64,000 nucleotides of DNA, taken from assembly GCF_016906995.1 (NCBI RefSeq), contig NZ_JAFBBD010000004.1, positions 186,001 through 250,000 on the forward strand, read 5' to 3'. Source of the DNA: Spongiibacter marinus (GTDB lineage Bacteria > Pseudomonadota > Gammaproteobacteria > Pseudomonadales > Spongiibacteraceae). Each line of letters opens with the position of its first letter. Position 1 is the stretch's first letter. The notes under the pieces were generated by a model. It did no database searches. It had not been told where the DNA came from and worked only from the letters and a program-made list of their open reading frames with translations. This document shows positions 19,412 to 33,640 of this stretch, one piece after another. The position numbers and the translations under genes are program-made.

Positions 19412-20902
19412 ATGGCAGCGAACGCCCGCATACGCCCGATTGAATCCGTTACTCACTTTGATATCACCACCGACGTGTTAATTTGCGGCTACGGGGGCGC
19501 TGGCGCTGCCGCGGCCCTTGAGGCTGCCGCGGCCGGCGCGAAGGTCTGTATTATTGAGCGCGCCAGCGCTGGTGGCGGTGCCACCGCGTTATCCAGCTGC
19601 GAAATGTATCTCGGAGGCAGTGGCGGCACCGCGCTGCAGAAAGACCTGGGCATACACGACAGTACTGAAAACCTACTAGCCTACCTACACGAAGCGCTGG
19701 GCCCCTACGGCGACAGCGAAAAAATTCGCTGTTACGCCGAGGGCGCGGCCGCTCACTTCGACTGGGTAGAGTCACTGGGTGTTAGCTATAAGCGTGCGGT
19801 AATGCATGAGCGCACCGTGGTGCCACTCAGCGACGAATCGCTGCTGTTTACCGGCAATGAAAAATCTTACCCCTTCAATACCATCGCTGAGCCAGTGCCG
19901 CGTGGCCACGTCCCCTCAAAGGAAGGTGACGAAGGCGGCAAAATTTTTATGGATGCAATTATGCAACGCGTTGATGAAGCGGGAGTGGACGTTGTTAACG
20001 ACTGCCGGGCACTGGCACTGCTGGCGGACAATACGGGGCGAATCTGTGGTGTTATCGCAAAACACGATAACCGCGAAATCGCGATTCGCGCCACGCGCGG
20101 GGTGGTGTTGACCACCGGCGGCTTTGTTATGAACGAGGCGATGACCCGCCAATATCTGCCAGAGATTCATCAATACGCGGTGCCCTACGGCAATAGCTAT
20201 GATATGGGCGACGGTATCCAGCTGGGGCTCGCGGCGGGTGGCCAAGCCATCAATATGGATCAGGCCTTCATGTCGTTCCCACTCTACCCACCCGCCAAGC
20301 TTACCTACGGCCTGCTGCTCAACCAGCGTGGCCAGCGTTACATCAATGAAGATGCCTACCTTGCCCGGTTGGCGCATTACTCCTGCCAGCAGCCTGAGCA
20401 AAAATTCTATTTACTTGTGCAGGAAGAGGACTACGAGGCCTCACATTACCTGGAGCGTGCACCGCTGATCGCCAGCGGTAACAGCATCGCTGAGGTGGCA
20501 TCAGAAGCCCCCTTCCCCCCCGGCGCGCTGGAAGATACCGTCGACTATTTTAATCGACATGCCAGTGAAGGGCGCGACCCGCTCTTCCACAAAACCTCCG
20601 AATGGCTAAAGCCGCTCAGTAAACCGCCTTACGCCCTGCTGGAGTATTCCGCCAGTGAAATGCGCGCAATCATTATGCCGGGCACCAATGGCCCGCTAAT
20701 CTTTACGCTCGGCGGCTTAAAAACACGTTGTAATGGCGAAGTACTCGATGTCGACAACCAGGCGATCCCCGGCCTCTTCGCCGCAGGCCGTGCAACCGCG
20801 GGCCTGCCGCGCACCGCAAAGGGATACGCCAGCGGCATGTCGGTGGGTGATGCGACATTCTTCGGTCGACTGGCGGGCAGGCAGGCGGCATTAAGCCAGT
20901 AA
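19412..20902 (+). CDS. FAD-binding_2 flavoprotein, ketosteroid-dehydrogenase-like
   Basis: A 496-residue flavoprotein of the fumarate-reductase/3-ketosteroid-dehydrogenase superfamily. The N-terminal dinucleotide fold reads LICGYGGAGAAAALEAAAAG and is followed by IERASAGGGATALSS. The mid-region has VLTTGGFVMNEAM. The end reads GLFAAGRATAG...GYASGMSVGDATFFGRLAG, where KstD proteins have a comparable G...G..FG..AG segment. The likely reaction is FAD-dependent dehydrogenation of a ring or a C-C double bond; a true delta-1-ketosteroid dehydrogenase is possible but not proven. It is divergent from a TetR gene. Its 3' end overlaps the next, convergent TetR gene by 12 bases. Confidence 0.82.
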   Translation: MAANARIRPIESVTHFDITTDVLICGYGGAGAAAALEAAAAGAKVCIIERASAGGGATALSSCEMYLGGSGGTALQKDLGIHDSTENLLAYLHEALGPYGDSEKIRCYAEGAAAHFDWVESLGVSYKRAVMHERTVVPLSDESLLFTGNEKSYPFNTIAEPVPRGHVPSKEGDEGGKIFMDAIMQRVDEAGVDVVNDCRALALLADNTGRICGVIAKHDNREIAIRATRGVVLTTGGFVMNEAMTRQYLPEIHQYAVPYGNSYDMGDGIQLGLAAGGQAINMDQAFMSFPLYPPAKLTYGLLLNQRGQRYINEDAYLARLAHYSCQQPEQKFYLLVQEEDYEASHYLERAPLIASGNSIAEVASEAPFPPGALEDTVDYFNRHASEGRDPLFHKTSEWLKPLSKPPYALLEYSASEMRAIIMPGTNGPLIFTLGGLKTRCNGEVLDVDNQAIPGLFAAGRATAGLPRTAKGYASGMSVGDATFFGRLAGRQAALSQ

Positions 20903-21499
20903 TTGGTGGCGAACCCCCTCAATCAACAGGGGTAAGGATATGTCGATGGGCTCCTGAGCAACCGCATTTGCCAAGCCTGTAAAGATCTCCGGCGACAGTG
21001 CCTCAGGCATCGCCGCCGCAGCCTCGCCCTGTTGCCAATGACCGGCATGCAAAGAGGCCCGCATACACACAGCGCCGACGACGAGCTGAATAGTCGCCAT
21101 ATAGACCCTCACCGAGGCATCTGTCGCCAATCCACTTTCCGCCAGCTTGGCGGCAAAGCGTTCTGTCACCCGGAGCGCGTTGCCGCCAAGGCGCAACTTT
21201 CCCAGCCAGGGCACCCAGGACATTTCGCTACACAGCGCCTGGTACATGCCCCGCGCGCTCACAGTCAGCCATTCATCCCAGGGCAATTGGTCATCGGGCA
21301 GCACCTCCGCGCGAGCGATAAATTCTTCAAAGGCTGCCCCCAGCAACTCATCTTTATTCGCAAAATGCTTGTACATCGCCATTGCGGAAACCCCCAGCTG
21401 ACTGGCAACGCGGCGCATCGATAATTTATCAACGCCAACATCGGCAATCAAGTCTAGCGCAGCATCCACAAAACGCTGGCGATTCAAACTGCCACTCAT
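20891..21499 (-). CDS. TetR-family regulator
   Basis: A 202-residue TetR repressor. The N-terminal helix-turn-helix is clear: FVDAALDLIADVGVDKLSMR, then QLGVSAMAMYKHFANKDELL. The C-terminus resembles the TetR_C-type helical domain with tryptophan-rich helices (LPWDEWL, MSWVPWLGKL). I start it at the ATG at 21499, preceded by CGAGGTGAT; an outer GTG in frame is possible. It lies 35 bases downstream of the P450 gene on the same strand, so the two are probably one transcript and this may be the P450 repressor. Its 3' end overlaps the flavoprotein gene by 12 bases. Confidence 0.88.
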   Translation of the reverse strand: MSGSLNRQRFVDAALDLIADVGVDKLSMRRVASQLGVSAMAMYKHFANKDELLGAAFEEFIARAEVLPDDQLPWDEWLTVSARGMYQALCSEMSWVPWLGKLRLGGNALRVTERFAAKLAESGLATDASVRVYMATIQLVVGAVCMRASLHAGHWQQGEAAAAMPEALSPEIFTGLANAVAQEPIDISLPLLIEGVRHQLLA

Positions 21500-21534
21500 A
21501 TCACCTCGACTTATCTTATTTGTAGCCAACACAA

Positions 21535-22995
21535 CTAAGCCGCTCCAGCGTGTTCACGACGCTCGACTCCTCCGCTTCCGCCACCGCCAGCGAGCCCGCG
21601 CTTAGCGGTAAAGCGGATCGGCAAGCACTGCAATGTACGTGCAAACATCGACGCCACATAGGGGGAAGGCCCCGCCAGGGAAAGGTTTTCGGTGCGCAGC
21701 AGAAACTCACGCAATACGATACGAATTTCCGTGCGCGCCAGCTCGCGACCAATGCAGGCGTGTATACCGTGACCAAATGTCAGGTGTTTTTTGCCGTTGC
21801 TGCGGTCAAGACGAATGTCATCGGGCGCCGTGAATACGCGCTCGTCGCGATTCCCCGCCGCCCACATTAGAAACACCCGGCTGTCGGCGGGCAAGTGTAC
21901 ACCGTGCAATTGCGTCGCGCTCTTGGTCCAACGAAAATGCCCCTGAAAGGCCGCTTCAAGGCGAAAGACCTCTTCGATAAAGACCGGCAGTAAGCCATCC
22001 AAATCCTCGCGCAGCTGCGTCTGGATTTCGGGGTTTTCAATTAACAGTTTCAGCGCATTCCCCATACTGGTCGCGGAGGAGTCCGACCCGGCGATCAGCA
22101 GCTGCATTACTGCGGAAACCGCGGTGTGCTCAGCCATCACCGCATCTTCGCCCGTGGCCGCCTGCACAAACACCGCGCTAAGATCATCGCGTGGCCGCCG
22201 CTTGGCCAGTATAAATTGCTGCCAGCAATAGCGATAAAACACCACCAGCTCTGCCTGACTGCGGGCTAGCGCCGCCCCATGAGCGATACCGCTTTGTGTG
22301 GCAATACCGTGCACACACCAGTCTTTTATTTTTTCATAGTCTGCTTCGGGAAAGCCCAGCATGCGAATGATCAGTCGCATGGGCAAGCGCCAGGCGAAGT
22401 CGCGCATAAACTCAAGTTCCCCTCTGTCGATGACCTCATCCATCATTTCCCGACAAAGCGCCGTCACCTCGTCTTCCATGGCCTTGACCACCCGCGCATT
22501 TAAACCGCGATGTCCGACCTTGCGCTCGGCGGTATGGGCCGGCGGATCAGACAGCGCCAACACGTCGCTGGGTATCACTCCCATCATTTCAAGGGGGCGC
22601 AACTTCGCCGCCTCGCGCTCGACACTGTGTCCAGGCTTTAGCCCTGCAATCACGCCCTGATGGGTAGACGAAAAAACGTCAGTGTTCCGGCTCACCTCAA
22701 CAATATCCTGATACCGGGATAGGCAGTAAATGCCATTGGGCAACTGGTAAACCGGGTAGTCGTCGCGCAGCATTTTGTAAAAGGCATAGGGGTTCTGAAA
22801 ACAGGCGTCTTCCAGCGGCCGAAAATCTTCCGGGCGCGTGGGCTGCCCCACGGCGATATTTCCCGTGGCGGTCTCGGCGCCCGGGCTGTCAACTCGCTTT
22901 GTGCGACGGGTATAGCGTCGCGCCGATAACCGCATTCCCCGCTCAATGAGGTGAGAAAGTAAACAACGGCGACTGTGGTAAAACGGACGATTCAT
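21535..22995 (-). CDS. Cytochrome P450
   Basis: A bacterial haem-thiolate monooxygenase of 486 residues. The haem loop FGHGIHACIG places the axial thiolate at about C414. The I-helix oxygen-activation motif is AGSDSSA and the K-helix ExxR is EVFR. The N-terminal 50 residues are basic and of low similarity to class I P450s, so the true start could lie inside; the ATG at 22995 has GAGG eight bases upstream. It is soluble, so it needs a ferredoxin and reductase, which are not adjacent. Neighbours suggest hydroxylation of a steroid or isoprenoid, but the subfamily cannot be assigned. Confidence 0.92.
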   Translation of the reverse strand: MNRPFYHSRRCLLSHLIERGMRLSARRYTRRTKRVDSPGAETATGNIAVGQPTRPEDFRPLEDACFQNPYAFYKMLRDDYPVYQLPNGIYCLSRYQDIVEVSRNTDVFSSTHQGVIAGLKPGHSVEREAAKLRPLEMMGVIPSDVLALSDPPAHTAERKVGHRGLNARVVKAMEDEVTALCREMMDEVIDRGELEFMRDFAWRLPMRLIIRMLGFPEADYEKIKDWCVHGIATQSGIAHGAALARSQAELVVFYRYCWQQFILAKRRPRDDLSAVFVQAATGEDAVMAEHTAVSAVMQLLIAGSDSSATSMGNALKLLIENPEIQTQLREDLDGLLPVFIEEVFRLEAAFQGHFRWTKSATQLHGVHLPADSRVFLMWAAGNRDERVFTAPDDIRLDRSNGKKHLTFGHGIHACIGRELARTEIRIVLREFLLRTENLSLAGPSPYVASMFARTLQCLPIRFTAKRGLAGGGGSGGVERREHAGAA

Positions 22996-23006
22996 AGCAG
23001 AGCCTC

Positions 23007-23051
23007 AGCAAGCTTCATTGCAGGTACTGGTAAAACTACCCGAGCAAGCTT
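23007..23051. repeat. Direct repeat in the P450/epoxide hydrolase gap
   Basis: AGCAAGCTT occurs at 23007-23015 and again at 23043-23051, 36 bases apart, in the 96-base region between the divergent P450 and epoxide-hydrolase-like genes. Each copy contains the palindrome AAGCTT. It could be a regulator site shared by both genes; chance is not excluded. Confidence 0.3.
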
Positions 23052-23091
23052 ACACTGTAAACCAGAAAATAATAACGGCGAGACACAAGCA

Positions 23092-23463
23092 ATGAACGAC
23101 AAGAATCAGCAAATAATCGACCAGTTTATGCAGGCGTGGAACCAGCGAAATCTCGAACAGATCATGGGTTTCTTTCACGAGGACGCCGAATACTGCAACA
23201 TTCCTATGGGACCGCCACACATTGGCAAAGCCGCCATACGCGAATTTATCGAGGGTTTTCTCAACAGCCTGGAAGACATTGAATTCATTGTGCACCACCA
23301 GCTTTGCGATGACGCTAATGGTGTTGTCATGAATGAACGCACAGACCGAATAAACCTGGCAGGCAAGACCATTGACCTGCCTGTTATGGGGGTATTTCTA
23401 TTGCGCGACGGGTTAATTCAGCAGTGGCGGGACTACTTTGATATGGCGCCCTTCAGCAGCTGA
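23092..23463 (+). CDS. Limonene-1,2-epoxide hydrolase-like protein
   Basis: A 123-residue SnoaL-like cone fold of the limonene-epoxide hydrolase type. From memory, the active site of that family is Y-x-N, R-x-D and W-x-D, and all are present: Y34 and N36 in EYCNIPM, R83 and D85 in ERTDR, W112 and D114 in WRDYFD. It should therefore open an epoxide by direct water attack. Homologues include mycobacterial EphG, known to act on cholesterol-5,6-epoxide. The ATG at 23092 gives the family length; a longer frame reaches back into the gap. Divergence from a P450 gene suggests the P450 or a neighbour makes the epoxide. Confidence 0.85.
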   Translation: MNDKNQQIIDQFMQAWNQRNLEQIMGFFHEDAEYCNIPMGPPHIGKAAIREFIEGFLNSLEDIEFIVHHQLCDDANGVVMNERTDRINLAGKTIDLPVMGVFLLRDGLIQQWRDYFDMAPFSS

Positions 23464-23467
23464 GTGC

Positions 23468-24475
23468 TTACAGGGCGGCACGGCTAAGCTCTGCCGCGAG
23501 GCTAACGCCGCGATCCAGGCACCAGAATACCGATATCGCGCCCATGCTGTATATCAGCGCATAGCGCAATGGCGGCTCCCAACGCGAAACCGAGCGCAGG
23601 GCTGCCAGCACCGCGGCCAGTGCTGCAACAAAAACTAGCTGCCCGAGCTCAATGCCAATATTAAAGGCCAACACCGCCTTGAGCAGGTGTCCACTGGGCA
23701 GACCCAGTTCCGCCAATACGCCGGCAAAGCCCAGCCCGTGCACCAAACCGAACAGCAGCGCCATCGGCCAGGGGTGGCGGCGCAAAATACCGCCAGCGCG
23801 GCCAGATGCCGGGCGCGTTAATTCCAGGGCCAACAGTAAAATCGTTGCCGCGATAGCCAACTCCACCAAGGCCGGCCAATGCGGCAACACGTCGATGCTC
23901 ACCAGCACCAAGGTGATACTGTGCCCGACCGTAAACGCGGTAATGGTCAACAACAGCAGGCGCCATGTGCTAACCAGTAACAGCAGCCCCGCTACAAATA
24001 ATAAATGATCCAAACCAATTAAGATGTGGCTGAAGCCCAGGCCCAAATACTGTGTAAAGACGCTGCCCTGCGATGCTTTTTCGGCAAATTCAAAGCGCGG
24101 GGCGTCCGCCGTTAGGAGTGTTTCGAATAGCTCACCGCGTTCATTCTGAACACGCAATAAGGCCGTTGTACGACTCTGCTGCAAGCCCGTGATGGCGATG
24201 CTCTGCCCAGACAAGGGGCTTGAACAATGCAGTTTCCAGCGCCACTCCAGGGCCGTTCCCTGAGGCGAAATATTCGGCGCTGAAGGTGAACACGCAGCGG
24301 GAAACTGCGGATGCGGCGGTCGCTGTGCGTCAGCTGGCGTGCGAAACAGCACCTGATATTCAGCATTGCCTACTGCGCGAAATTCCAGCAACGACGGCGC
24401 TAATTTATGTGCCCAGCTCGCCCCAGCAAACAGCATTAGTCCCGCCAGGAATGATAGGCGCCAAAATACATTCAT
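23468..24475 (-). CDS. HupE/UreJ-like membrane protein
   Basis: A 335-residue membrane protein. A signal sequence (1-22, ending GASWA) precedes a periplasmic domain (about 23-135) with two cysteines (AACSP and LHCSS). A C-terminal bundle of about six helices follows with the HupE/UreJ_2 motifs: LGFSHILIGLDHLLFVAGLL, FTVGHSITLVL, and FGLVHGLGFAGVLAELG with several histidines in helices. HupE proteins are linked to nickel or cobalt uptake, but this long form with an extracytoplasmic domain has no proven role. Its start overlaps the parvulin gene stop by 4 bases (ATGA), so the two are translationally coupled. Confidence 0.85.
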   Translation of the reverse strand: MNVFWRLSFLAGLMLFAGASWAHKLAPSLLEFRAVGNAEYQVLFRTPADAQRPPHPQFPAACSPSAPNISPQGTALEWRWKLHCSSPLSGQSIAITGLQQSRTTALLRVQNERGELFETLLTADAPRFEFAEKASQGSVFTQYLGLGFSHILIGLDHLLFVAGLLLLVSTWRLLLLTITAFTVGHSITLVLVSIDVLPHWPALVELAIAATILLLALELTRPASGRAGGILRRHPWPMALLFGLVHGLGFAGVLAELGLPSGHLLKAVLAFNIGIELGQLVFVAALAAVLAALRSVSRWEPPLRYALIYSMGAISVFWCLDRGVSLAAELSRAAL

Positions 24476-25416
24476 GGGCTGCGCACTCGGTAACGTTGGC
24501 GTAATTGCTCTATGAAGCCCTGGAGGTTGTCTGCGCGCTGCTGTTGTAACAGCTCCTCGCGCAGCGGCGACCTAACGCTGTCAAATGCGCGCTCAGTAGC
24601 AGGATGAAAGCCCGTTATCTTAACCAGATGTAAACCATACGCCGAGGCAACGGGGCCCTGCCAATTGGAAGACTGCAACGACGCTGCTGAGTGCTGTTGC
24701 ATCCACTGGGAAAAAGATTCACCAAAACTGCGCTCCAGGTGGTATGCCGAGACTTGAGACATCTCAGAGCCAAGCAGAAAGCTGTCTCCCTGTGAGAGAG
24801 CCGCGGCGTCACTGAGTGCCCCACTACGCAGCCGTTGGAGTAGGTCTTGGGCCCGCTGTTGCATACCTCGTTTGTCTGCACTGATAAAAACATGCTGGAA
24901 GCTATAACTCGGTTCACCGCTCCAGCGCGCTCTATCGGCCTCGTAAGCAGCCCTCAGCTGGGCTTCCGTTGGCGCTGTTAACGCTCCGGAAGCGCTGCCG
25001 AGTGCTTCCATGCGCTGTATTAAACGGCGCTGAATCACTTCGTCACCGCGATGGAGCTCCAAGGACAACGCCGTATTCATCTGCTGCTCAGCGCTGCCGT
25101 CCATCCCCAGGAAAGCCGCGTTGCGCAATAGCCGTTGTTTGACAACAGGGTCGCTCAAATGCAGCTCTCGGCGCAGTGCTTCGCTAAACAATATGCGTTG
25201 GTCAATTTCATGTTGACGCAGCGCCGCGTGCTGCGCCGAGGAAAGCGGTCGCCCCTGCAGTGTTTCGACTTGCACAGCAGCATCGATCAAAAACGCCGCA
25301 TCGGGCGCCGTAATTTGATAAGCGGCGTATTGCAGCCGCCAATGCTCTGCCGCATACAACAGGCAACCCAGCACAAGAAAATGTATCAGCGGACGCCGAT
25401 ACCAAGGCTTGATCAT
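24472..25416 (-). CDS. Membrane-anchored parvulin-type prolyl isomerase
   Basis: A 314-residue predicted folding catalyst. One N-terminal transmembrane anchor (about 8-24, PLIHFLVLGCLLYAA) faces an extracytoplasmic region. A SurA-like helical part (residues 40-150) has a DQRILFSEALRRELHL pattern. A PpiC-type rotamase domain follows, with FQHVFIS near 175, GSEMSQV and the closing segment GPVASAYGLHLVKITG. The domain order resembles PrsA/PpiD-type chaperones. It overlaps the thioesterase gene upstream and the HupE-like gene downstream by 4 bases each. The tight coupling suggests it helps fold the HupE-like protein's periplasmic domain, which is inference. Confidence 0.85.
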   Translation of the reverse strand: MIKPWYRRPLIHFLVLGCLLYAAEHWRLQYAAYQITAPDAAFLIDAAVQVETLQGRPLSSAQHAALRQHEIDQRILFSEALRRELHLSDPVVKQRLLRNAAFLGMDGSAEQQMNTALSLELHRGDEVIQRRLIQRMEALGSASGALTAPTEAQLRAAYEADRARWSGEPSYSFQHVFISADKRGMQQRAQDLLQRLRSGALSDAAALSQGDSFLLGSEMSQVSAYHLERSFGESFSQWMQQHSAASLQSSNWQGPVASAYGLHLVKITGFHPATERAFDSVRSPLREELLQQQRADNLQGFIEQLRQRYRVRSP

Positions 25417-25907
25417 TCGCCATCCAACCAGGTATTTCGCGGCGGCCGCAATTGACTACCAATATTTAGCGGCAGCGGCTGCGCCAGATTTTCGCGGACT
25501 TGCTTACGCAAAAAGCGCTGCAGCGATTCGGGCATGTCTGCTGAGCGCCGCGCTTGTAAGTCGATATGAATGTCCACTTGCTCAGATGTGGCGCTGCGGC
25601 ATTGCCGGCTGCAGTTATACAGCTCGTGGAAGAAATGCAGACGCTTATTATCGACCGCCAGCAGCCAACACCGCACCTCCAGCTGGTCGCCCAACCCGGC
25701 CTCACGCTCATAGCGCATATGGCTTTCCAGCACTGCTTTGCCACACCGGGCCCGGTCGACATACTCCTCATTAAAGCCTAGCCATTCACTGTGCGCGGCG
25801 TGCGCCTCGTAGATCACCAAACCAAAGTGCGTCGCATTCATATGGCCGTTTACATCGATCCACTCAGGCTTTACCGCTCCGCGATAACCAATATAGGGCT
25901 GATTCAT
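25413..25907 (-). CDS. Hotdog-fold acyl-CoA thioesterase
   Basis: A 164-residue 4HBT-type thioesterase that probably hydrolyses an acyl-CoA or acts in its transfer. The family pattern WIDVNGHMNATHFGLVIYEA is clear and includes the aspartate and histidine near residue 20. It is followed by ESHMRYEREAGLGDQLEV, the second conserved block. The ATG at 25907 with GGGAG five bases upstream is preferred over the GTG two codons further out. Its stop overlaps the parvulin start (ATGA), and it lies 51 bases downstream of the isomerase-like crotonase gene, so it belongs to the same leftward transcript. Confidence 0.87.
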   Translation of the reverse strand: MNQPYIGYRGAVKPEWIDVNGHMNATHFGLVIYEAHAAHSEWLGFNEEYVDRARCGKAVLESHMRYEREAGLGDQLEVRCWLLAVDNKRLHFFHELYNCSRQCRSATSEQVDIHIDLQARRSADMPESLQRFLRKQVRENLAQPLPLNIGSQLRPPRNTWLDGE

Positions 25908-25958
25908 TTTCACTCCCTGGGCTCAATCAAATATTGGCAACCCTCACCTCACAGAGAG

Positions 25959-26729
25959 TTATGCCTTGCGAAACTGGGAAAAATCCGGTGCGCGCTTTTC
26001 CATAATCGCTACGACAGCTTCAATATTTTCGGGCTTACCCGCCAGTTTCGCCATGCCTGCTTGTTCAGCATCAATAGCGGCATGAATCGCTGCACGGTGC
26101 ACTCGGCGCATCAGATCTTTCGTCTCACGCAACGAGCTGACCGGCCACTTCGCAATTTCTCTTGCCTTCTCCATAGCCCGCTCCAGTAGCTCGTCATCGC
26201 TGTAAGCCGCCGTGGCAATACCCAGCTCTACTGCGCGCTCAGCCCCCAGCCACTCAGAGGTATACATCAGTTCTGCGGCTTTACGGGCACCGATGACGGC
26301 CTGAAGCTGGTAGCTGCTGCCCCACTCAGGCACCAAGCCCAACGCGGTAAAAGGAAAACGCAAACGCAGGGATTCGCCCACATAGACAACATCGGTATGC
26401 AGCAGTAAGGTCGCGCCACCACCTATCGCCACGCCCTTGGCCGCGCTCACAATAGGCTTGTTAAAGTCGACCAGACGTCGCGCGCAGCGCTCGAAAGGGT
26501 GCTCCCCACCCGCCTCTGAAAAATCGTTTAGATCTACGCCGCTGGAAAAATCACTGCCCGCTCCGGTCACCACCACACAGGCGACCGCCGGATTTTCATC
26601 GGCGGCTTCCAGCGCTTCGCCAAAGGCTAGCCACTGCTCATTGCTAAAAGCATTTTTTTTCTCGGGTCGGTTCAACGTCAGCAGCAGCACACCGTGCTCG
26701 TCTAGTTTCTGAAGTACTGTATCGCTCAT
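25959..26729 (-). CDS. Enoyl-CoA hydratase/isomerase, isomerase-like
   Basis: A crotonase of 256 residues. The oxyanion-hole strand is SSGVDLNDF and the helix IGGGATLLLHTDVVYV follows. In the active-site loop it reads LGLVPEWGSSYQL, with a single glutamate where ECI2-type enoyl-CoA delta isomerases have SPEGCSSY; the other hydratase glutamate (usually in FGxPE) is Phe here. Shifting a double bond in a dienoyl- or enoyl-CoA is therefore more likely than hydration. It is 16 bases downstream of the nitroreductase gene and part of the leftward CoA-ester cluster. Confidence 0.87.
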   Translation of the reverse strand: MSDTVLQKLDEHGVLLLTLNRPEKKNAFSNEQWLAFGEALEAADENPAVACVVVTGAGSDFSSGVDLNDFSEAGGEHPFERCARRLVDFNKPIVSAAKGVAIGGGATLLLHTDVVYVGESLRLRFPFTALGLVPEWGSSYQLQAVIGARKAAELMYTSEWLGAERAVELGIATAAYSDDELLERAMEKAREIAKWPVSSLRETKDLMRRVHRAAIHAAIDAEQAGMAKLAGKPENIEAVVAIMEKRAPDFSQFRKA

Positions 26730-26745
26730 AGTTATCTCGCTCTAT

Positions 26746-27417
26746 TCAGGAAAAGAACCGCAGGCAATTGTCTGAGGTGTCGCGCTGGGTTCGGCAATTA
26801 TTCACTGCGGCATCGGTGTCTTCTTCGCCGAAGGAGATACCAAATAGCAGTTTATTTTCCGCACCTATTCCCAGTACCTCTCGCACTAGGTCGGCATTAA
26901 AGCTCAGTGCCGTCTGCGGACAACTGGCCAAGCCCTCTGCTGTCAGAGCCAGCATCAGGCTTTGGGCATACATGCCGCAATCGGCTGCTTCGCGTAAACC
27001 GAAGGGCTCGGGCAGGAAAATAAATGCCACGTGCGGCGCACCAAAAAACCGAAAGTTTTGCATGAATTGTTCATTGCGCCCGGCTTTATCCTCGCGGGCA
27101 ATCCCCATCGCGCTATATAGGTCAGTCGCTGCCTGGTATTGGCGCTCCTTGTACACCCCTTGGTATTGGCCATCGTAGGGAAAGTCCATGGTCCACTGCC
27201 CTGCGGTAAATGCTTCCGGAATCGCTGATCTGAGTACTTCCAATCGCTCACCACTGACCACCGCGCACAACCACGGTTGCGTGTTACAGTTCGACGGCGC
27301 TTGCTGCGCAGCGCGAAAAATCTTCTGTAAGCGCGCCTCGGCTATCGGCTCGGGGCGAAATGCGCGAACTGACCGCCTGCGCTCTAGCACGTCGTAAAAA
27401 GCGTGTGCGTGATTCAT
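26746..27417 (-). CDS. Nitroreductase-family flavoprotein
   Basis: A 223-residue FMN oxidoreductase. The FMN-phosphate region LERRRSVRAFRPEPI near the N-terminus, the APSNCNTQPW stretch and the MYAQSLMLALTAEGLASCPQ dimer/FMN segment are typical of the family. Such enzymes use NAD(P)H to reduce nitro groups, quinones or activated double bonds; the natural substrate here is not evident. It sits between the alpha-methylacyl-CoA racemase (12 bases) and isomerase genes (16 bases). A role in reducing or removing a conjugated double bond in a CoA intermediate is a reasonable guess. Confidence 0.9.
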   Translation of the reverse strand: MNHAHAFYDVLERRRSVRAFRPEPIAEARLQKIFRAAQQAPSNCNTQPWLCAVVSGERLEVLRSAIPEAFTAGQWTMDFPYDGQYQGVYKERQYQAATDLYSAMGIAREDKAGRNEQFMQNFRFFGAPHVAFIFLPEPFGLREAADCGMYAQSLMLALTAEGLASCPQTALSFNADLVREVLGIGAENKLLFGISFGEEDTDAAVNNCRTQRDTSDNCLRFFS

Positions 27418-27429
27418 TCTCTCTCCCTA

Positions 27430-28569
27430 TCAGTCTGTACTAACCGCATTCCCCGCAATTAGCGACTCGATCTTTTCTGTATCGAAACCCAGTTCCTGCA
27501 GTAGCTCCCGGCTTTGAGCGCCACTCACCGCTGGGCCACTTTGTATTTCACCGGGAGTGCGAGACAACCTCGGCGCGACGCCAGTTTGAACCACGCCATC
27601 GCGTTCAACAAGGTTCCCTCGCTGGGCGTTATGTGGGTGGTCGATTGCCTCATCTAACGGCACAATCGGTGCTACGCAGGCATCAGTGCCGTCGAAAATC
27701 GCGCACCACTGTGCCTGGGTCTTTTCCTTAACTCGCGCAGCGATCTGCTCACGCTGACGCGGCCAATCGGCTTTGTTCAACTGCACGCTGTAGTCTGTGC
27801 CACCAAAATCAATATCCAGTTTTTCCAGCAACAACGCATAAAACTGTGGCTCGATTGCGCCGAAGGAGATATAGCGCCCGTCTTTGCACTCATAGTTGCG
27901 GTAAAACGGCGCGCCGCCATCAAGCATGTTGTGCTCTCGCTCGGCATCCCAGAAGTCGATCGCTTTGAGGCCGTGCAGGGTGCTCATTAACGATGCCGCG
28001 CCGTCGCAAATTGCCGCATCGATAACCTGTCCTTTGCCTGACTGGCTTCGCTCATGCAACGCCGCCAGCATTCCCATCACCAGAAATAGCGAGCCGCCAC
28101 CCAGATCGCCCGCCACGTTCAGGGGCACCGGTGGTGGGCGGTCAGCATCGCCCATGCTTGCCAACATGCCACTTAAGGCGATGTAATTAATATCGTGACC
28201 GGCTGTCATTGCCAGCGGCCCGTTTTGCCCCCACCCCGTCATGCGACCGTATATCAACCTTTCATTTGACTGACAGCAAACCTCGGGGCCCAGGCCTAGC
28301 TTTTCCATCACACCGGGTCGGAAACCTTCGACAAGCATGTCGGCACTATCGATCAGCTGTCGGGCAAGCGCGAGTCCGTCTTCTGATTTCAGGTTTAAGG
28401 CTATCGAGCGCCGACCACGGGTGCTGACATCACCCGGCTGGCCCAGTGCGCCGCTGCGATCAATTCGGATCACCTCAGCGCCCAGGTCGGATAACAACAT
28501 ACAGGCGTAAGGCCCGGGGCCAATGCCGGCCATCTCGATAACTCTCACGCCGTTTAGTGGCCCAGACAT
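27430..28569 (-). CDS. Alpha-methylacyl-CoA racemase
   Basis: A class III CoA-transferase-fold protein of 379 residues with the racemase signature. It epimerises the alpha-methyl centre of branched acyl-CoAs so that S-specific dehydrogenases can act. The catalytic pair seen in the M. tuberculosis racemase is kept: H125 and D126 in AGHDINYIALSG, and D155 in VAGDLGGGS. The N-terminus VRVIEMAGIGPGPYACMLLS also matches. This enzyme is needed for sterol side chains and pristanic-type acids, which supports the proposed cluster function. An 87-base gap with a GC-rich hairpin separates it from the EchA19-like gene upstream. Confidence 0.92.
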   Translation of the reverse strand: MSGPLNGVRVIEMAGIGPGPYACMLLSDLGAEVIRIDRSGALGQPGDVSTRGRRSIALNLKSEDGLALARQLIDSADMLVEGFRPGVMEKLGLGPEVCCQSNERLIYGRMTGWGQNGPLAMTAGHDINYIALSGMLASMGDADRPPPVPLNVAGDLGGGSLFLVMGMLAALHERSQSGKGQVIDAAICDGAASLMSTLHGLKAIDFWDAEREHNMLDGGAPFYRNYECKDGRYISFGAIEPQFYALLLEKLDIDFGGTDYSVQLNKADWPRQREQIAARVKEKTQAQWCAIFDGTDACVAPIVPLDEAIDHPHNAQRGNLVERDGVVQTGVAPRLSRTPGEIQSGPAVSGAQSRELLQELGFDTEKIESLIAGNAVSTD

Positions 28570-28623
28570 AGCCTCATCCTTCTTAGTGGGGGAATTATTG
28601 GTATTGAGAAGGGGGTCGCGGGT

Positions 28624-28648
28624 AGCGGCGGAAGCATCGTCCGCCGCT
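28624..28648. repeat. GC-rich hairpin between crotonase and racemase genes
   Basis: AGCGGCGGA (28624-28632) and TCCGCCGCT (28640-28648) pair perfectly with a 7-base loop, between the crotonase stop at 28657 and the racemase start at 28569. No T run follows on the transcribed strand. It may be an mRNA processing or stability element between genes of one transcript. Confidence 0.4.
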
Positions 28649-28656
28649 GCGACGGT

Positions 28657-29478
28657 CTATTCGCCGATGAATTCGGCGGGACGTTTTTCTTTGAAGGCGC
28701 GCATGCCCTCTTTGGCATCCTTGGAGGCAAACACCGGGCCTGCCAGCTCATCGGACTTCAGCATCGCCTCGTCTTCTGCCAGGTGCTCCGTGTGCTCACG
28801 CAATGAACGCGTCACCGCTTTCACCGCCAGCGGACCATTTGCACAGATTTTTTCGGCTATTTTCTTCGCTTCGTTCAAGGTTTCACCCTTGGGCACAATG
28901 CGGTTAATCAAGCCAAATTCCAGCGCCTGCTGTGCACTAACGTGCTCACCAAGCAGCAGAATTTCAGCGGCAATGCAGTAGGGAATTTGTTTGCGCAGAC
29001 GCACAGTTGAGCCGGACATCGGATATAGGCCACGCGCCACTTCCGTCACACCGAAGATGGCATCCTCAGCCGCAACGCGAATATCAGTACCCTGAAGAAT
29101 TTCCGTTCCACCCGCCAGCGCATAACCTTCCACAGCAAGGATCAATGGCTTGCAGGGGCGGTTGTCACGCAGCAGTGCCTGCCAATGGATATTGGGCACT
29201 GTGGCCATCAATTCCATAAACTCTTCCGTGCTGCGCTGTTGGCCATCCGCTCCGGCCTTAAGATCCATTCCCGCACAAAAGGTATCGCCGTTGGCGGTAA
29301 GAATAGCGCAGCGAAGATCGTCGTCTTCATCCAGCAAGCGCCACGCTTTATAGAGCCCCAACAGCATTTCAGGGCTGAACGCATTTTTTGCTTCCGGGCG
29401 GTTCAGGGTAACAATCAGTACGTGGCCGTCTTTTTCAACGATGCAGTTTTCGGTACTGATAGGCAGTTCGGTAGGCAT
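28657..29478 (-). CDS. Enoyl-CoA hydratase, EchA19-like
   Basis: A crotonase of 273 residues. Key segments are FCAGMDLKAGADG (oxyanion hole), AVEGYALAGGTEILQGTD and GLYPMSGSTVRLRKQIPY. By recall these are close to M. tuberculosis EchA19 (Rv3516), an enoyl-CoA hydratase of cholesterol side-chain degradation. The likely reaction is hydration of the C22 unsaturated steroid-CoA or a similar branched enoyl-CoA. The ATG at 29478 has GGAG six bases upstream; an outer in-frame start adds six residues. It follows the FadD19-like gene on the same strand with an 86- to 104-base gap containing a hairpin. Confidence 0.9.
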   Translation of the reverse strand: MPTELPISTENCIVEKDGHVLIVTLNRPEAKNAFSPEMLLGLYKAWRLLDEDDDLRCAILTANGDTFCAGMDLKAGADGQQRSTEEFMELMATVPNIHWQALLRDNRPCKPLILAVEGYALAGGTEILQGTDIRVAAEDAIFGVTEVARGLYPMSGSTVRLRKQIPYCIAAEILLLGEHVSAQQALEFGLINRIVPKGETLNEAKKIAEKICANGPLAVKAVTRSLREHTEHLAEDEAMLKSDELAGPVFASKDAKEGMRAFKEKRPAEFIGE

Positions 29479-29551
29479 GATTGGCTCCATTAGCAATTCA
29501 TTGTTATGAGAATAAGTGAAAAGCAGCGGCCATGAATGCGGGCAGAGTGTG

Positions 29552-29574
29552 CCGGAGTAGCATCGCTACCCCGG
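29552..29574. repeat. Hairpin between acyl-CoA synthetase and crotonase genes
   Basis: CCGGAGTAGC (29552-29561) pairs with GCTACCCCGG (29565-29574), nine of ten bases, around a 3-base loop. It lies between the fadD-like stop at 29583 and the downstream crotonase start at 29478. No T run follows. It is similar in place to the hairpins at 28624-28648 and 31368-31406. Confidence 0.4.
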
Positions 29575-29582
29575 CCCAGGGA

Positions 29583-31214
29583 TCAGGAAACCTGCCCCTC
29601 ACCACTCAGCGCAAAGGCTTTTGCTGTTTTATAGTCGGGCTTGCCGCTGGGGGCGCGAGGAATTTCTGCAATGATATGCACCTCGCGTGGCACCTTGTAA
29701 CCCGCCACATGTTTGCGGCAATGCTCTTGAACATTCTTAAGGTCGAGGTCGACACCCTCGCGCGCCTGAATAACCGCACTCACGCGGCTACCCCAACGCT
29801 CGTCGGGAACGCCAATGACCAGTGCATCGAAGACACCGTCGTGGGCCTTAAGCGCGTCTTCAACCTCTTCGGGGAAAATTTTCTCACCACCGCTGTTAAT
29901 ACAGTTTGAGCCGCGACCGAAGACAGTAATTGACCCATCTTCTTCCAGCTTGGCGGCATCCCCCGTCAACAACCAGGTTTTACCGTCCACCTCAACGAAG
30001 GTCTTGGCGGTTTTTTCAGGGTCATTGTAGTAGCCCATTGGGATGTAACCCGCGCGAGCAAAGATACCGGTTTCGCCGAGTTCAGCGTGACGACGCGGCT
30101 GGTCTGGCTCGTCGATAATCACGTCCATGTAGTCGGTACGACTAACGTTGCCAAGTCCCGATGCCGTTTTCTTGCTGCCGTTATCCATGCCCATTTGGCC
30201 GCCTTCCGACGAACCAAACGCGTTGGTAACAAAGACATTAGGGAAATGCTTCTTGAAGGCCTCTTGCTTGGCTTCAGAGAAGATCGCACCGCCTGAACCA
30301 ACGTTAAATACTGCCGACAAATCCCAGCGACCGGGGTTCGCATCGAGTGCATCCAACAGGGGAATGGCCATGGCATCGCCAACGATCTGCACAGCATTCA
30401 CTTTTTCGTCCGCAACGATCTGCCATACCTCGGCACCGTCGAAGGAGCGATTGTGATTAAGCACCAGCTTGTTGCCCGCAAGCAGCTGGATACAGGCATA
30501 CCACCACGATGCGCCATGCATCAACGGCGCCAGTGCGATACCGGTCAGCGGGTGCTCGCCAACGCGCTCGGTAATATCTTCGGGCTTCTCACAGGGGCCG
30601 AGTGGCGAAAAGTGACCGCCGCCGCCCATCGCCGCAAAAAATACATTTTTATGCGGCCACATAACGCCCTTAGGCATGCCCGTAGTACCACCGGTGTAGA
30701 GAACAAAGTAGTCGTCATCGGCACGCTCAGCGAAATCGCGCTTGGCGCTCTGCCCTTCACAGGCCTGCGCGTAGTCGATAGAACCAATGCTGGCGATGTC
30801 TGCATCGCTACCGTCATCCACCGACACAAATACTTTCAGTTTCTTCGCCGCCGAACGAACTTCGGCAATATGCGGGGCGAACTCGCGGTGATGCACACAG
30901 GCAACCATGTCTGCATTATCAAAGATGTAAAGCAGCTCATCTTTCACATAGCGGTAGTTAACATTGATAGGCACCGCGCGAATTTTGAAGCAAGCCAGCA
31001 TCGCTTCCAGATATTCGTTGCAGTTGTACATGTACAAACCAACGTGGTCGCCGGCCTTCACACCCTGACTGCTCAGGTAGTGGGCCATACGGTTGGCGCC
31101 AGCATCAAGCTCGGCGTAGGTCGCACGGCTACTGCCACATACCAGCGCTTCACGGCTGGGTACTTTATCGGCAACGGCTTCAAACAAATCCGCAAGGTTA
31201 AAATGCATGCTCAT
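29583..31214 (-). CDS. Steroid-type acyl-CoA synthetase, FadD19/FadD17-like
   Basis: An ATP-dependent acyl-CoA ligase of 543 residues that activates a carboxylic acid side chain to its CoA ester. The P-loop is YTGGTTGMPKG (173-183), the adenylation motif is in FGSSEGGQMGM, the hinge region is near GRGSNCINSGGEKIFPEEVE, and the C-terminal catalytic lysine is in APSGKPDY. The segments VMWPHKN, GDAMAIPLLDAL and NSGGEKIFPEEVEDALK resemble, from memory, M. tuberculosis FadD19, the C24-C26 sterol-CoA ligase. A 203-base gap with hairpins and a palindrome precedes it, so it may have its own promoter. Confidence 0.93.
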   Translation of the reverse strand: MSMHFNLADLFEAVADKVPSREALVCGSSRATYAELDAGANRMAHYLSSQGVKAGDHVGLYMYNCNEYLEAMLACFKIRAVPINVNYRYVKDELLYIFDNADMVACVHHREFAPHIAEVRSAAKKLKVFVSVDDGSDADIASIGSIDYAQACEGQSAKRDFAERADDDYFVLYTGGTTGMPKGVMWPHKNVFFAAMGGGGHFSPLGPCEKPEDITERVGEHPLTGIALAPLMHGASWWYACIQLLAGNKLVLNHNRSFDGAEVWQIVADEKVNAVQIVGDAMAIPLLDALDANPGRWDLSAVFNVGSGGAIFSEAKQEAFKKHFPNVFVTNAFGSSEGGQMGMDNGSKKTASGLGNVSRTDYMDVIIDEPDQPRRHAELGETGIFARAGYIPMGYYNDPEKTAKTFVEVDGKTWLLTGDAAKLEEDGSITVFGRGSNCINSGGEKIFPEEVEDALKAHDGVFDALVIGVPDERWGSRVSAVIQAREGVDLDLKNVQEHCRKHVAGYKVPREVHIIAEIPRAPSGKPDYKTAKAFALSGEGQVS

Positions 31215-31235
31215 AGTGGGTCCCTGTTAGATCAA

Positions 31236-31254
31236 CGCCGCCTCGACGGCGGCG
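31236..31254. repeat. Hairpin in the fadD-like 5' leader
   Basis: CGCCGCC (31236-31242) pairs with GGCGGCG (31248-31254) around TCGAC, about 22 bases upstream of the acyl-CoA synthetase ATG at 31214. A stem this close to the start could affect translation of the synthetase mRNA. Confidence 0.4.
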
Positions 31255-31276
31255 CCAATTTGTTTAATTGTTATCT

Positions 31277-31292
31277 CTGCGATGACTCGCAG
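31277..31292. promoter_or_regulatory. Candidate operator upstream of fadD-like gene
   Basis: CTGCGA and TCGCAG form a perfect 6+6 inverted repeat around TGAC, 63 bases before the synthetase start. It could be a repressor site controlling a promoter in the ltp3-fadD gap. Based on symmetry and position only. Confidence 0.3.
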
Positions 31293-31367
31293 TAATGTAT
31301 CGCAACCGTATTGCCGGGCAGGCCAGAACGGCGTATAGCCCAACACAGTAACAAGGCCATTCTCACC

Positions 31368-31406
31368 CAGCCATCCTCCCAAGGGACGAGTTAAGGGGGA
31401 TGGCTG
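31368..31406. terminator. Strong hairpin after the ltp3-like gene
   Basis: CAGCCATCC (31368-31376) pairs with GGATGGCTG (31398-31406) over nine bases, extended inward by CCC/GGG, starting 12 bases past the ltp3-like stop at 31418. The loop is long and no T run follows. It may mark the 3' end of the DUF35-ltp4-ltp3 message or be a partial terminator before the fadD-like gene. Confidence 0.45.
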
Positions 31407-31417
31407 ATGACCATTTG

Positions 31418-32581
31418 TTAATGCTTTTCGCTGCTCACTACCCACATTGAGTAGAACTGGGCACCACCGCCATAGGCGTGACCCAATGCCGTCTTGGCAC
31501 CGTCCACTTGATGGTCTCCCGCTTCACCGCGCACCTGCTGCGCAGCTTCGGCAAAGCGAATCATGCCCGAGGCACCAATCGGGTTCGACGACAGTACGCC
31601 ACCAGAGCAGTTCCAGGGAATATCGCCACCTTCCAGCAAGGAGGTTGCGCCGCTCATGGTGAGCTCCCAACCCTTACCGTCTTCGGCAAAACCGAGGTTT
31701 TCCAGCCACATGGGCTCATACCAAGAAAATGGCACGTAGACTTCGGCGCAATCGAGGTCCTTGCGAGGATTGTCGATACCCGCTTGCTTGTACACATCCT
31801 TCGCACAATCGCGGCCCGCTTGCGGATTAACCTGCTCACGACCGGCGTACATAGTCGGCTCAGAGCGCATTGCCGCACCGCGAATCCACGCCGGTTTGCC
31901 CGGTGATTGCTCGGCAAGATCTTCGTTGGCAATCACCATCGCGCAGGCACCATCAGACGACGGACAGGCCTCAAGGAAGCGCAGTGGCTCCCACAGCATT
32001 GGGCTGTCTTCGACCTCTTTCATAGTAATTTCTGGCAGCTGTAGATGCGCCAGCGGGTTTTTGGCACCGTGCAGGCGGTCTTTAACGGCAACTTTAATAC
32101 CCGCGTCATAAGGGGCATTAGAGCGGCGCATGTACTCGCGAATAATCGGCGCAAAATAACCGCCAGCACCCGCATTCAAGTGTGGAGAAAATGGCTGAGG
32201 GTTGGACAATGCCCACATGGCGTTGGACTCGGATTGCTTCTCAAACGACACCGTGAGAATGCGTTTGAACACGCCGCTCTGCACGTAGGATGCCGCCACG
32301 ATAGCCGTGGAGCCCCCAACGGAGCCGGCGGTGTGCACGCGCAGCATTGGCTTGCCGTTACAACCCAGTGCATCGGTGAGGTACAGCTCGGGCATGATAA
32401 CGCCCTCGAACATGTCCGGCGCCTTGCCGAGGATGACGGCATCGATGTCATCCCAGGTTAGCTGGGCATCATTGAGCGCATTCTGCGCCGCTTCGCGAAC
32501 CAAGCCCGCGATCGATACGTCGCCGCGCTTTGTTTTGTATTTGGTCTGACCGACGCCGACCACAGCAGCTAATTGAGCCAT
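31418..32581 (-). CDS. Thiolase-fold protein, Ltp3-like, without nucleophilic Cys
   Basis: A lipid-transfer-protein-type thiolase of 387 residues. The N-terminus LAAVVGVGQTKYKTKRGDVS and the segments FEGVIMPELYLTDALG and CPSSDGACAMVIA resemble, from memory, M. tuberculosis Ltp3 (Rv3523). Where SCP-x thiolases carry the nucleophilic cysteine (NNNCATGSTA), this protein has Ser at position 87 (HTAGSVGGSTA). Classic thiolysis by this subunit is therefore unlikely; a retro-aldol or partner-dependent reaction on a steroid-type CoA is more probable. The ATG at 32581 shares its A with the TAA stop of the upstream ltp4-like gene (TAATG), and GGAGG lies just before, so the pair is translationally coupled. 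Confidence 0.87.
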   Translation of the reverse strand: MAQLAAVVGVGQTKYKTKRGDVSIAGLVREAAQNALNDAQLTWDDIDAVILGKAPDMFEGVIMPELYLTDALGCNGKPMLRVHTAGSVGGSTAIVAASYVQSGVFKRILTVSFEKQSESNAMWALSNPQPFSPHLNAGAGGYFAPIIREYMRRSNAPYDAGIKVAVKDRLHGAKNPLAHLQLPEITMKEVEDSPMLWEPLRFLEACPSSDGACAMVIANEDLAEQSPGKPAWIRGAAMRSEPTMYAGREQVNPQAGRDCAKDVYKQAGIDNPRKDLDCAEVYVPFSWYEPMWLENLGFAEDGKGWELTMSGATSLLEGGDIPWNCSGGVLSSNPIGASGMIRFAEAAQQVRGEAGDHQVDGAKTALGHAYGGGAQFYSMWVVSSEKH

Positions 32582-33639
32582 TATTGGGCCTCCAGTACAG
32601 TTACCAGGTTTTGTTGCAGACACGGCCCCGACGTTGCGTGTGCCACGCCGCGCTTGCCTTCACCGTTGATTAATCGCATGGCCACTTCACCGATGCGCGA
32701 CAGGCCAGAGGCCATCATCACATTGCCTGCCAACACGCCGCCCGACGGGTTTACCTTGGTGTCATCGGATAAATTCAGCGCCCGGCGCAGGATGATTTCC
32801 TGGTGGCTGAACGGCGCATACAACTCGGCAATATCCACCGGCCCTTGCGCGACGCCAGCCGCCTCAGCCGCTTGTTTGGTAGAGATTGATTGCGTTAGAT
32901 CGCGCGAGCCGATGTGGTGGGTCTCGATGCGGTGATCAATCCCCTTAATCACGGCATAGGGCTTACCCCATTCTTTAGCCTTCTCGACGGTGCATATAAT
33001 CATTGCACAAGCGCCATCAGAGATTGGGCAGCAATCGTGGCGACGCAGTGGCGATTCATACTCAGGCTCGGCGAGCAGCTCATCAACACTGACATCACCC
33101 TTCAACTGAGCGTGGGGGTTGTTGGCGGCGTTTTTGCGTGAGCGCGCAACGACCTCAGCCATCTCGGCTTCAGTAATCAAACCCTGCTCCAGCATCACCC
33201 GCGCCTGCATGGCAGCAAAGGCAATGGTGTCCACCCAGAGTGGCGCCAAGTAGTAGGGGTCGAGCTGTTGAGAGAGTACGATCGGCAATTCGCCTGGCGA
33301 CGACTTACCAAAGCCGTAAATCAGTGCCGACTCGGCCTGGCCCATTTGAATTTTTAGCCAAGACTCATAGAGCGCCCAGGCGGCGTCCATCTCAACGTGT
33401 GACTCTTTAATGGGTGGCACGGCACCCAGCGCGTCAACACCCGCCACAAATGCGAAGGCTGCGCCCTGCTGGTAGTCGCAACTACCAGAGCAGGTGAAGT
33501 CAACATCCTGAGCACTGTTAATACCCGTCTGCTTGTAGACTTCCTGCAAGACCGGCATGATCAGCTCAACTTCGTTGCGAGCGCCAGCATCGCGCACACA
33601 ATCAGACTGGGCAAAGGCTACAATAGCTACATCGCGCAT
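32581..33639 (-). CDS. Thiolase-fold protein, Ltp4-like, without N-terminal Cys
   Basis: A second lipid-transfer-type thiolase homologue of 352 residues. Aligned to SCP-x thiolase through FGKS/GFEK, the nucleophile position falls in VEMDAAWAL, with no cysteine. C-terminal features remain: CCPISDGACAMII, PSGGVLAGNVMMASG, and GPCLQQNLV with a cysteine near residue 340. It resembles M. tuberculosis Ltp4 (Rv3522) by recall. It is 1 base from the DUF35 gene stop and overlaps the ltp3-like start by 1 base, which predicts a stoichiometric complex of the three proteins acting on a CoA ester. Confidence 0.86.
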   Translation of the reverse strand: MRDVAIVAFAQSDCVRDAGARNEVELIMPVLQEVYKQTGINSAQDVDFTCSGSCDYQQGAAFAFVAGVDALGAVPPIKESHVEMDAAWALYESWLKIQMGQAESALIYGFGKSSPGELPIVLSQQLDPYYLAPLWVDTIAFAAMQARVMLEQGLITEAEMAEVVARSRKNAANNPHAQLKGDVSVDELLAEPEYESPLRRHDCCPISDGACAMIICTVEKAKEWGKPYAVIKGIDHRIETHHIGSRDLTQSISTKQAAEAAGVAQGPVDIAELYAPFSHQEIILRRALNLSDDTKVNPSGGVLAGNVMMASGLSRIGEVAMRLINGEGKRGVAHATSGPCLQQNLVTVLEAQ

Positions 33640-33640
33640 C

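Follow-up and report, generated by a model that had tools for sequence, protein, structure and literature searches.

A parvulin–HupE gene pair of Spongiibacter marinus and its constant partner, an exported DUF3604 protein

The window, the whole 64,000-nucleotide stretch of Spongiibacter marinus DNA analysed here (genome G000), carries a parvulin–HupE gene pair that is a conserved unit and whose constant partner is an exported protein, DUF3604 (PF12228), bearing the motif set of PHP-type metallohydrolases. The pair and DUF3604 co-occur, are adjacent in most genomes, and lie apart in G000. A partnership at the level of shared function is very probable; with less assurance, we regard the pair as probably dedicated to the exported DUF3604 protein, an accessory unit for its folding and metal handling that acts in trans here and does not serve the CoA-ester operon beside it. 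A sequence-only reading of the window had placed the pair with a thioesterase and this catabolic operon. The conservation and tight coupling of the pair were upheld, but its partner is DUF3604, which that reading missed because the DUF3604 gene sits on another contig of the same genome.

Gene coupling and the catabolic operon

The three genes reported at the end of the operon, with ATGA overlaps at both junctions, were borne out in their coordinates, minus-strand orientation and Pfam families (Table 1). Each junction, thioesterase/parvulin and parvulin/HupE, is a 4-nt overlap; the thioesterase start is the ATG at 25907, and a GTG two codons upstream (25913) is open too.

Table 1 Genes of the window at the operon end (window positions)
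Feature	Position	Strand	Pfam match
HupE/UreJ-2 permease with N-terminal-histidine periplasmic domain ("anglerase"-like)	23468..24475	-	PF13795 E 1.3e-41
Inner-membrane-anchored parvulin (Rotamase_2)	24472..25416	-	PF13145 E 5.9e-11
4HBT_2 hotdog thioesterase-like protein, lineage-specific neighbour outside the conserved module	25413..25907	-	PF13279 E 9.2e-26
Crotonase ECH1, last catabolic-operon gene that relatives share	25959..26729	-	
Nitroreductase-family protein, catabolic operon	26746..27417	-	
CaiB-type CoA-transferase	27430..28569	-	
Crotonase ECH2, EchA19-like, PRK07799 above cut-off	28657..29496	-	
Acyl-CoA synthetase, PRK07798 above cut-off	29583..31214	-	

Comparison of 44 loci revealed that the parvulin stop overlaps the HupE start by exactly 4 nt in 21 (17 ATGA, 4 GTGA/TTGA), and in most of the others a possible HupE start overlaps the parvulin by 1–14 nt; because the exact overlap recurs so often, the parvulin–HupE coupling exceeds chance. 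The overlap is widespread, and not unique to this strain, at the parvulin–HupE junction; the thioesterase–parvulin overlap is confined to the window genome and G013/N. salexigens (Neomelitea salexigens), two near-identical genomes. A tblastn search of 152 loci with the window thioesterase matched only the overlapping copies of these same genomes. The thioesterase, found beside the pair nowhere else in these loci, was therefore discarded as its natural partner, and the trio is a displaced pair plus a newcomer rather than a natural unit.

Upstream of the trio lie an acyl-CoA synthetase, two crotonases, CaiB, a nitroreductase-like gene, two thiolase-type genes and an OB-fold ChsH2-like gene. Together with its neighbours, which include P450, SnoaL-like and FAD-oxidoreductase-like genes, the CoA-ester operon spans 19412–34618 of the window; the operon is conserved in the genus. 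The matches of its synthetase and second crotonase to PRK07798 and PRK07799, which we take as an analogy with FadD19/EchA19, suggest a sterol-type side-chain degradation pathway. No hydrogenase or urease genes were found among the window neighbours scanned, unlike the case in Ni-specific HupE operons.

Relatives of ECH1 at E ≤ 1e-50 occur in 26 of 57 related genomes, and in all 12 relatives whose ECH1 surroundings were examined the operon is kept with neither thioesterase nor pair after ECH1; in one of the genomes (G007) a P450 resembling that of the window comes after ECH1, with a different gene between. Since the operons of 12/12 relatives end without it, the thioesterase–parvulin–HupE cassette at the operon end is a local addition. 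The catabolic operon is thereby ruled out as the constant host of the pair, and the proposed tie of the two membrane proteins to CoA-ester catabolism was not supported. A looser tie to the pathway may exist, because ECH1 co-occurs with DUF3604, which is present in 25/26 of the 57 relatives with ECH1 and 5/31 without, and, outside the family, in 7/8 genomes with ECH1 and 5/28 without. In a phylum sample, DUF3604 was found in 4/9 genomes with the NF005863 acyl-CoA synthetase versus 14/290 without it (p 0.001).

Co-occurrence with DUF3604 and displacement of the pair

The surroundings of full-length HupE relatives were searched in six frames with purpose-built profiles, in a set of 35 loci (L037–L070 and the window). 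The parvulin adjoins HupE in all of these except L061, although only a remnant is left in L046 and the contig end truncates it in L063. In 25 of the 35 loci (L063 does not allow a judgement) a third gene, encoding ~640–710 aa, directly adjoins them; all 4 of the 4 adjacent cases scanned are DUF3604, and a profile built from these finds the rest. The usual arrangement is thus one of three adjacent genes, here called a triad. Gene order is permuted, as in L065, L067 and G093, and across loci DUF3604 may be first, last or on the opposite strand, which argues for selection on linkage beyond shared ancestry.

The search for parvulin–HupE pairs and their neighbours across genomes, which the sequence-only reading had proposed, returned DUF3604 as a constant partner and the thioesterase as an inconstant neighbour. 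Far from having no constant partner, the pair was accompanied by DUF3604 in every genome counted as carrying HupE (28/28, 13/13 and 17/17 in three samples). Among the 57 relatives, DUF3604 is present in 30 genomes and full-length HupE in 28, all within the 30; among 229 genomes of the class, DUF3604 is present in 16, with HupE in 13 and the short parvulin in 12, all within the 16; among 299 genomes of the phylum, DUF3604 is present in 18 and HupE in 17, all within the 18. Fisher values for HupE and DUF3604 were 3e-14 (relatives), 1e-18 (class) and 8e-27 (phylum), and overstate independence, since the genomes are related and the three samples share a few of them. DUF3604 adjoins the short parvulin in 10 of 12 genomes of the class sample and HupE in 15 of 17 of the phylum sample, the exceptions being G000 and G529 (42 kb apart); in G430 the adjacent DUF3604 is only a fragment. 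DUF3604 without full-length HupE was found in G035 and G046 among the relatives, in G066, G148 (HupE fragment only) and G232 in the class, and in G035 in the phylum; several such genomes are fragmentary assemblies.

These counts depend on how a HupE or parvulin match was defined. For the relatives, full-length matches were counted, including G032 (cut at the contig end, full-length by profile) and excluding genomes with the membrane half only. For the class, matches starting at model position ≤13 were counted, plus the truncated G240 (85–331), and G267 (84–319, E 7e-61, no DUF3604), the G148 fragment and membrane-half-only matches were omitted; a plain cut of E ≤ 1e-80 places 12/12 in DUF3604-bearing genomes. 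The phylum count omits G311, G355, G408, G423, G427 and G455, in which no match starts before position 66. The class parvulin count of 12 omits 21 genomes whose sole matches were in open frames of 631–706 aa, as well as G219 (298 aa, E 6.8e-16, no DUF3604).

A few loci depart from the usual arrangement. The full-length HupE of the clade at L061 (9267–10277, G049) has neither parvulin nor DUF3604 adjacent, and a complete triad lies elsewhere in G049 (L060). The sole case of a split pair is G193, where the parvulin is beside DUF3604 (C1:100990–103466) and HupE on another contig (C5:62651). In a Myxococcota MAG (L035), parvulin–HupE has no DUF3604 within 14 kb, and several DUF3604 genes lie on other contigs of that genome.

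The only DUF3604 gene of G000 is at C3:228467–230266, on a contig other than that of the window. Its flanks on both sides correspond gene for gene to those of the triads of relatives, with the pair missing and 14 nt left; judged by this gene order, the locus is the ancestral triad locus minus the pair. Such an emptied locus was found in four genomes (G000, G013, G004 and, by one flank, G010), and all four keep an intact pair of the window's lineage elsewhere. In the HupE tree, the triad pairs of the genus form one clade (100/99), and the window pair belongs to a sister lineage (94/83) together with the triad pairs of a neighbouring genus, G018–G020. None of the eight loci of the window lineage in the genus has a directly adjacent DUF3604, and their surroundings are mixed; G006 has one two genes away. 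In G011, the second parvulin (L046, 10136–10632) has shrunk to a C-terminal remnant, with an IS200-type transposase next to it, and the triad copy is intact. The window pair is the only parvulin–HupE pair found in G000, with both genes intact and 90–96% identical to those of N. salexigens; three more HupE_UreJ_2 relatives in this genome (C6:284333, C15:11649 and C7:47221) are membrane-part matches only, with no parvulin nearby. The intact pairs of the emptied-locus genomes and the decay in G011 are as expected if the pair can serve DUF3604 in trans and one copy, whichever it is, is enough. The pattern amounts to a small natural experiment, not to proof.

Features of the three proteins

HupE matches the PF13795 (HupE_UreJ_2) profile with 142.3 bits (cut-off 24.5). 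Its predicted model, of moderate confidence, consists of a beta-sandwich at ~28–130 followed by a helical membrane part, in agreement with the periplasmic domain and cysteines that had been read from the sequence; of 50 relatives, 45 keep C62 and 46 keep C84. The best structural matches of the sandwich were Zn-bound ZrgA (8f1b, Z 11.1), PA4063 (Z 10.3) and Cu-bound Ang-1 (9gce, Z 8.2), and a search of solved structures gave nothing with the HupE profile and a chance match only with the HupE sequence. By inspection, the mature protein is predicted to start at His23 (SWA|HKLAPS), and the corresponding column after the predicted signal peptide holds H in 45 of the 47 relatives with a residue there. 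In the membrane part, all 50 of 50 sequences carry H150, H157, H185 and H246. On the predicted model, HupE carries the N-terminal-histidine domain, putatively metal-binding, of the "anglerases" described in 2025. According to the paper on Ang-1 (PMC12537917), the N-terminal histidine of this HupE/UreJ-2 protein binds Cu and Ni, and its domain is proposed to feed the permease.

The parvulin domain scores 43.7 bits against PF13145 (cut-off 27). Residues ~166–276 adopt a parvulin fold in the model (Z 13.0 to 3gpk), which also matches SurA (Z 12.7) and PrsA (Z 11.6); the model is poor outside this part, and the N-terminal part is helix-rich. H175 and H263 of the window protein are presumably the parvulin active-site histidines; H263 is kept in 42/42 relatives, of which 25 have H and 17 have Q at position 175. 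A lipobox cysteine anchor of the PrsA/PrtM type was not found: the Cys at residue 18 of the window protein is not conserved in the alignment, in which the family shows, by inspection, an N-terminal hydrophobic stretch. In G001 (L068, 8996–9514), a parvulin beside HupE and DUF3604 keeps the N-terminal half and the C-terminal end without the isomerase domain.

In DUF3604, H77, H79, D85, H136, E227, H239, H289, D408 and H410 are invariant in 18/18 sequences (an HxH, DH, E, H, H, DxH set) and follow the same order as nine residues of E. coli YcdX, which we take to be metal-site ligands. The match to the NCBIfam family CehA/McbA (NF038032) was weak (E 2.2e-4; 20.8, 14.7 and 18.4 bits, below the cut-off of 80), hhalign with YcdX aligned the first two motifs at a probability of 4%, and Pfam contained no PHP match up to E 10. 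A search of solved structures returned nothing for the single sequence and a chance match only with the DUF3604 profile. Because the profile comparison with YcdX is weak, it is the complete set of motifs, with the CehA/McbA hint, that supports the PHP assignment and leads us to infer that DUF3604 is probably an exported PHP-superfamily metallohydrolase.

An N-terminal hydrophobic stretch was detected by a crude test in 42/46 DUF3604 rows, including that of G000, which has 20 cysteines. The protein is cysteine-rich (17–20) in 19/25 triad rows and in 7/21 others, G000 among them; 5/25 triad rows lack any cysteine, and disulphide folding is therefore no general need. Among the triad rows there is also a divergent protein of 755 aa lacking the motifs. 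A second, cysteine-poor DUF3604 subfamily lies beside a ~830-aa TonB-dependent receptor at L079 (823–9288; receptor by profile) and L085 (7471–13865; receptor by length), with a sulfatase nearby at L079. This context suggests nutrient uptake for the second subfamily.

Competing explanations and comparison with known systems

For the pair as an accessory unit of DUF3604, the simplest mechanism we infer is that the parvulin folds DUF3604 and HupE handles its metal. The membrane-anchored parvulin would assist the folding of DUF3604 on the periplasmic side of the inner membrane, and HupE would capture a transition metal via its N-terminal histidine domain and either handle it for the metal site of DUF3604 or balance metal there; in the window strain both would act on DUF3604 in trans. 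The pair would have been inserted at the operon end locally and recently, and may thereby share the expression of that operon. A stronger form of this, in which the parvulin and an "anglerase" permease jointly mature DUF3604 as an exported multinuclear metallohydrolase, the permease being an extracytoplasmic metal loader and not a plain importer and the system working in trans when scattered, is tentative and to our mind somewhat doubtful. HupE/UreJ proteins are usually regarded as importers, which fits poorly with metal delivery to a periplasmic enzyme. Also counting against maturation are the cysteine-free DUF3604s of triads, the DUF3604 genomes without the pair, the Q at parvulin position 175 in 17/42 and the G001 parvulin without an isomerase domain.

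That importer role is central to another reading, in which DUF3604 and HupE make up one nutrient or metal acquisition route: DUF3604 would hydrolyse an external or periplasmic compound, HupE would import metal released by it or needed by downstream catabolism, and the parvulin would fold one of the two. HupE/UreJ proteins have been described as nickel permeases, and metal capture and uptake were proposed for Ang-1-HupE (PMC12537917); the adjacency of second-subfamily DUF3604 genes to TonB receptors and a sulfatase, and the co-occurrence of DUF3604 with the operon crotonase (25/26 versus 5/31) and NF005863 (4/9 versus 14/290), point the same way. However, the neighbourhoods seen contain no constant metal-dependent cytosolic enzyme, NF005863 is absent from 14 of the 18 DUF3604 genomes of the phylum sample, and the parvulin is left unexplained, and we consider an acquisition route unlikely. 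Still less probable is that the window pair is a stranded, dispensable second copy, functionless and merely co-transcribed with the operon. The eight genus loci of the window lineage, all in mixed surroundings without a directly adjacent DUF3604 and one of them decaying (G011), would suit a stranded copy, whereas the intactness and 90–96% identity to N. salexigens of the only pair found in G000 do not, and in every genome whose DUF3604 locus has lost the pair an intact one is retained at another site. Least credible, and in our judgement very improbable, is the model of the sequence-only reading, in which the parvulin is a foldase of HupE and both serve CoA-ester catabolism with the thioesterase. 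The ATGA coupling at both junctions, the operon-end position and the vicinity of parvulin and HupE in most loci agree with it, but the thioesterase is missing from all other fetched loci, the operons of 12/12 relatives lack the pair, and the constant partner is DUF3604. The idea that the parvulin folds HupE is moreover disfavoured by G193, in which the parvulin stays with DUF3604 and HupE is elsewhere, and by the HupE of L061 without an adjacent parvulin.

The accessory unit proposed here combines parts that each come from a known family, and, as far as open-literature searches show, the combination and its client are undescribed. In these searches, of 5.39 million open papers, DUF3604 gave one passing mention, an entry in a Chlamydia table, PF12228 gave none, and HupE with UreJ and peptidyl-prolyl gave one unrelated paper, with no description of a parvulin–HupE–DUF3604 module. 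Two orphan groups, the DUF3604 enzymes and the HupE/UreJ-2 "anglerase" clade, thereby gain a partner, and the folding and metallation of exported metalloenzymes become testable with three genes of harmless marine bacteria. The case also shows that, in a window-sized view, a module that has been displaced can look like part of the operon where it landed.

The closest known counterpart of HupE is Ang-1 (9gce; PMC12537917), with which it shares a signal peptide, a predicted N-terminal His and an immunoglobulin-like, putatively metal-binding periplasmic domain fused to a HupE/UreJ-2 permease. The two domains superpose with Z 8.2 and an rmsd of 2.9 over 105 residues; that of the window is shorter and has a conserved cysteine pair. 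The neighbours differ as well, being parvulin and DUF3604 here versus DUF4198, indigoidine-A-like and PfkB in the text of the Ang-1 paper, which does not contain the word "isomerase" (PMC12537917). DUF3604 has in common with CehA/McbA and other PHP-type metallohydrolases the H/D/E motif residues, in set and order as in YcdX; unlike CehA/McbA, it is a protein of ~600–700 aa, exported, often cysteine-rich and far below the family cut-off. The parvulin resembles PrsA and lactococcal PrtM, the latter linked to a proteinase, in its anchoring on the outside of the cytoplasmic membrane and in having the gene of an exported enzyme next to its own. It differs from them in that a hydrophobic helix at the N-terminus takes the place of a conserved lipoprotein cysteine, its putative client is DUF3604, and the unit also includes a metal permease.
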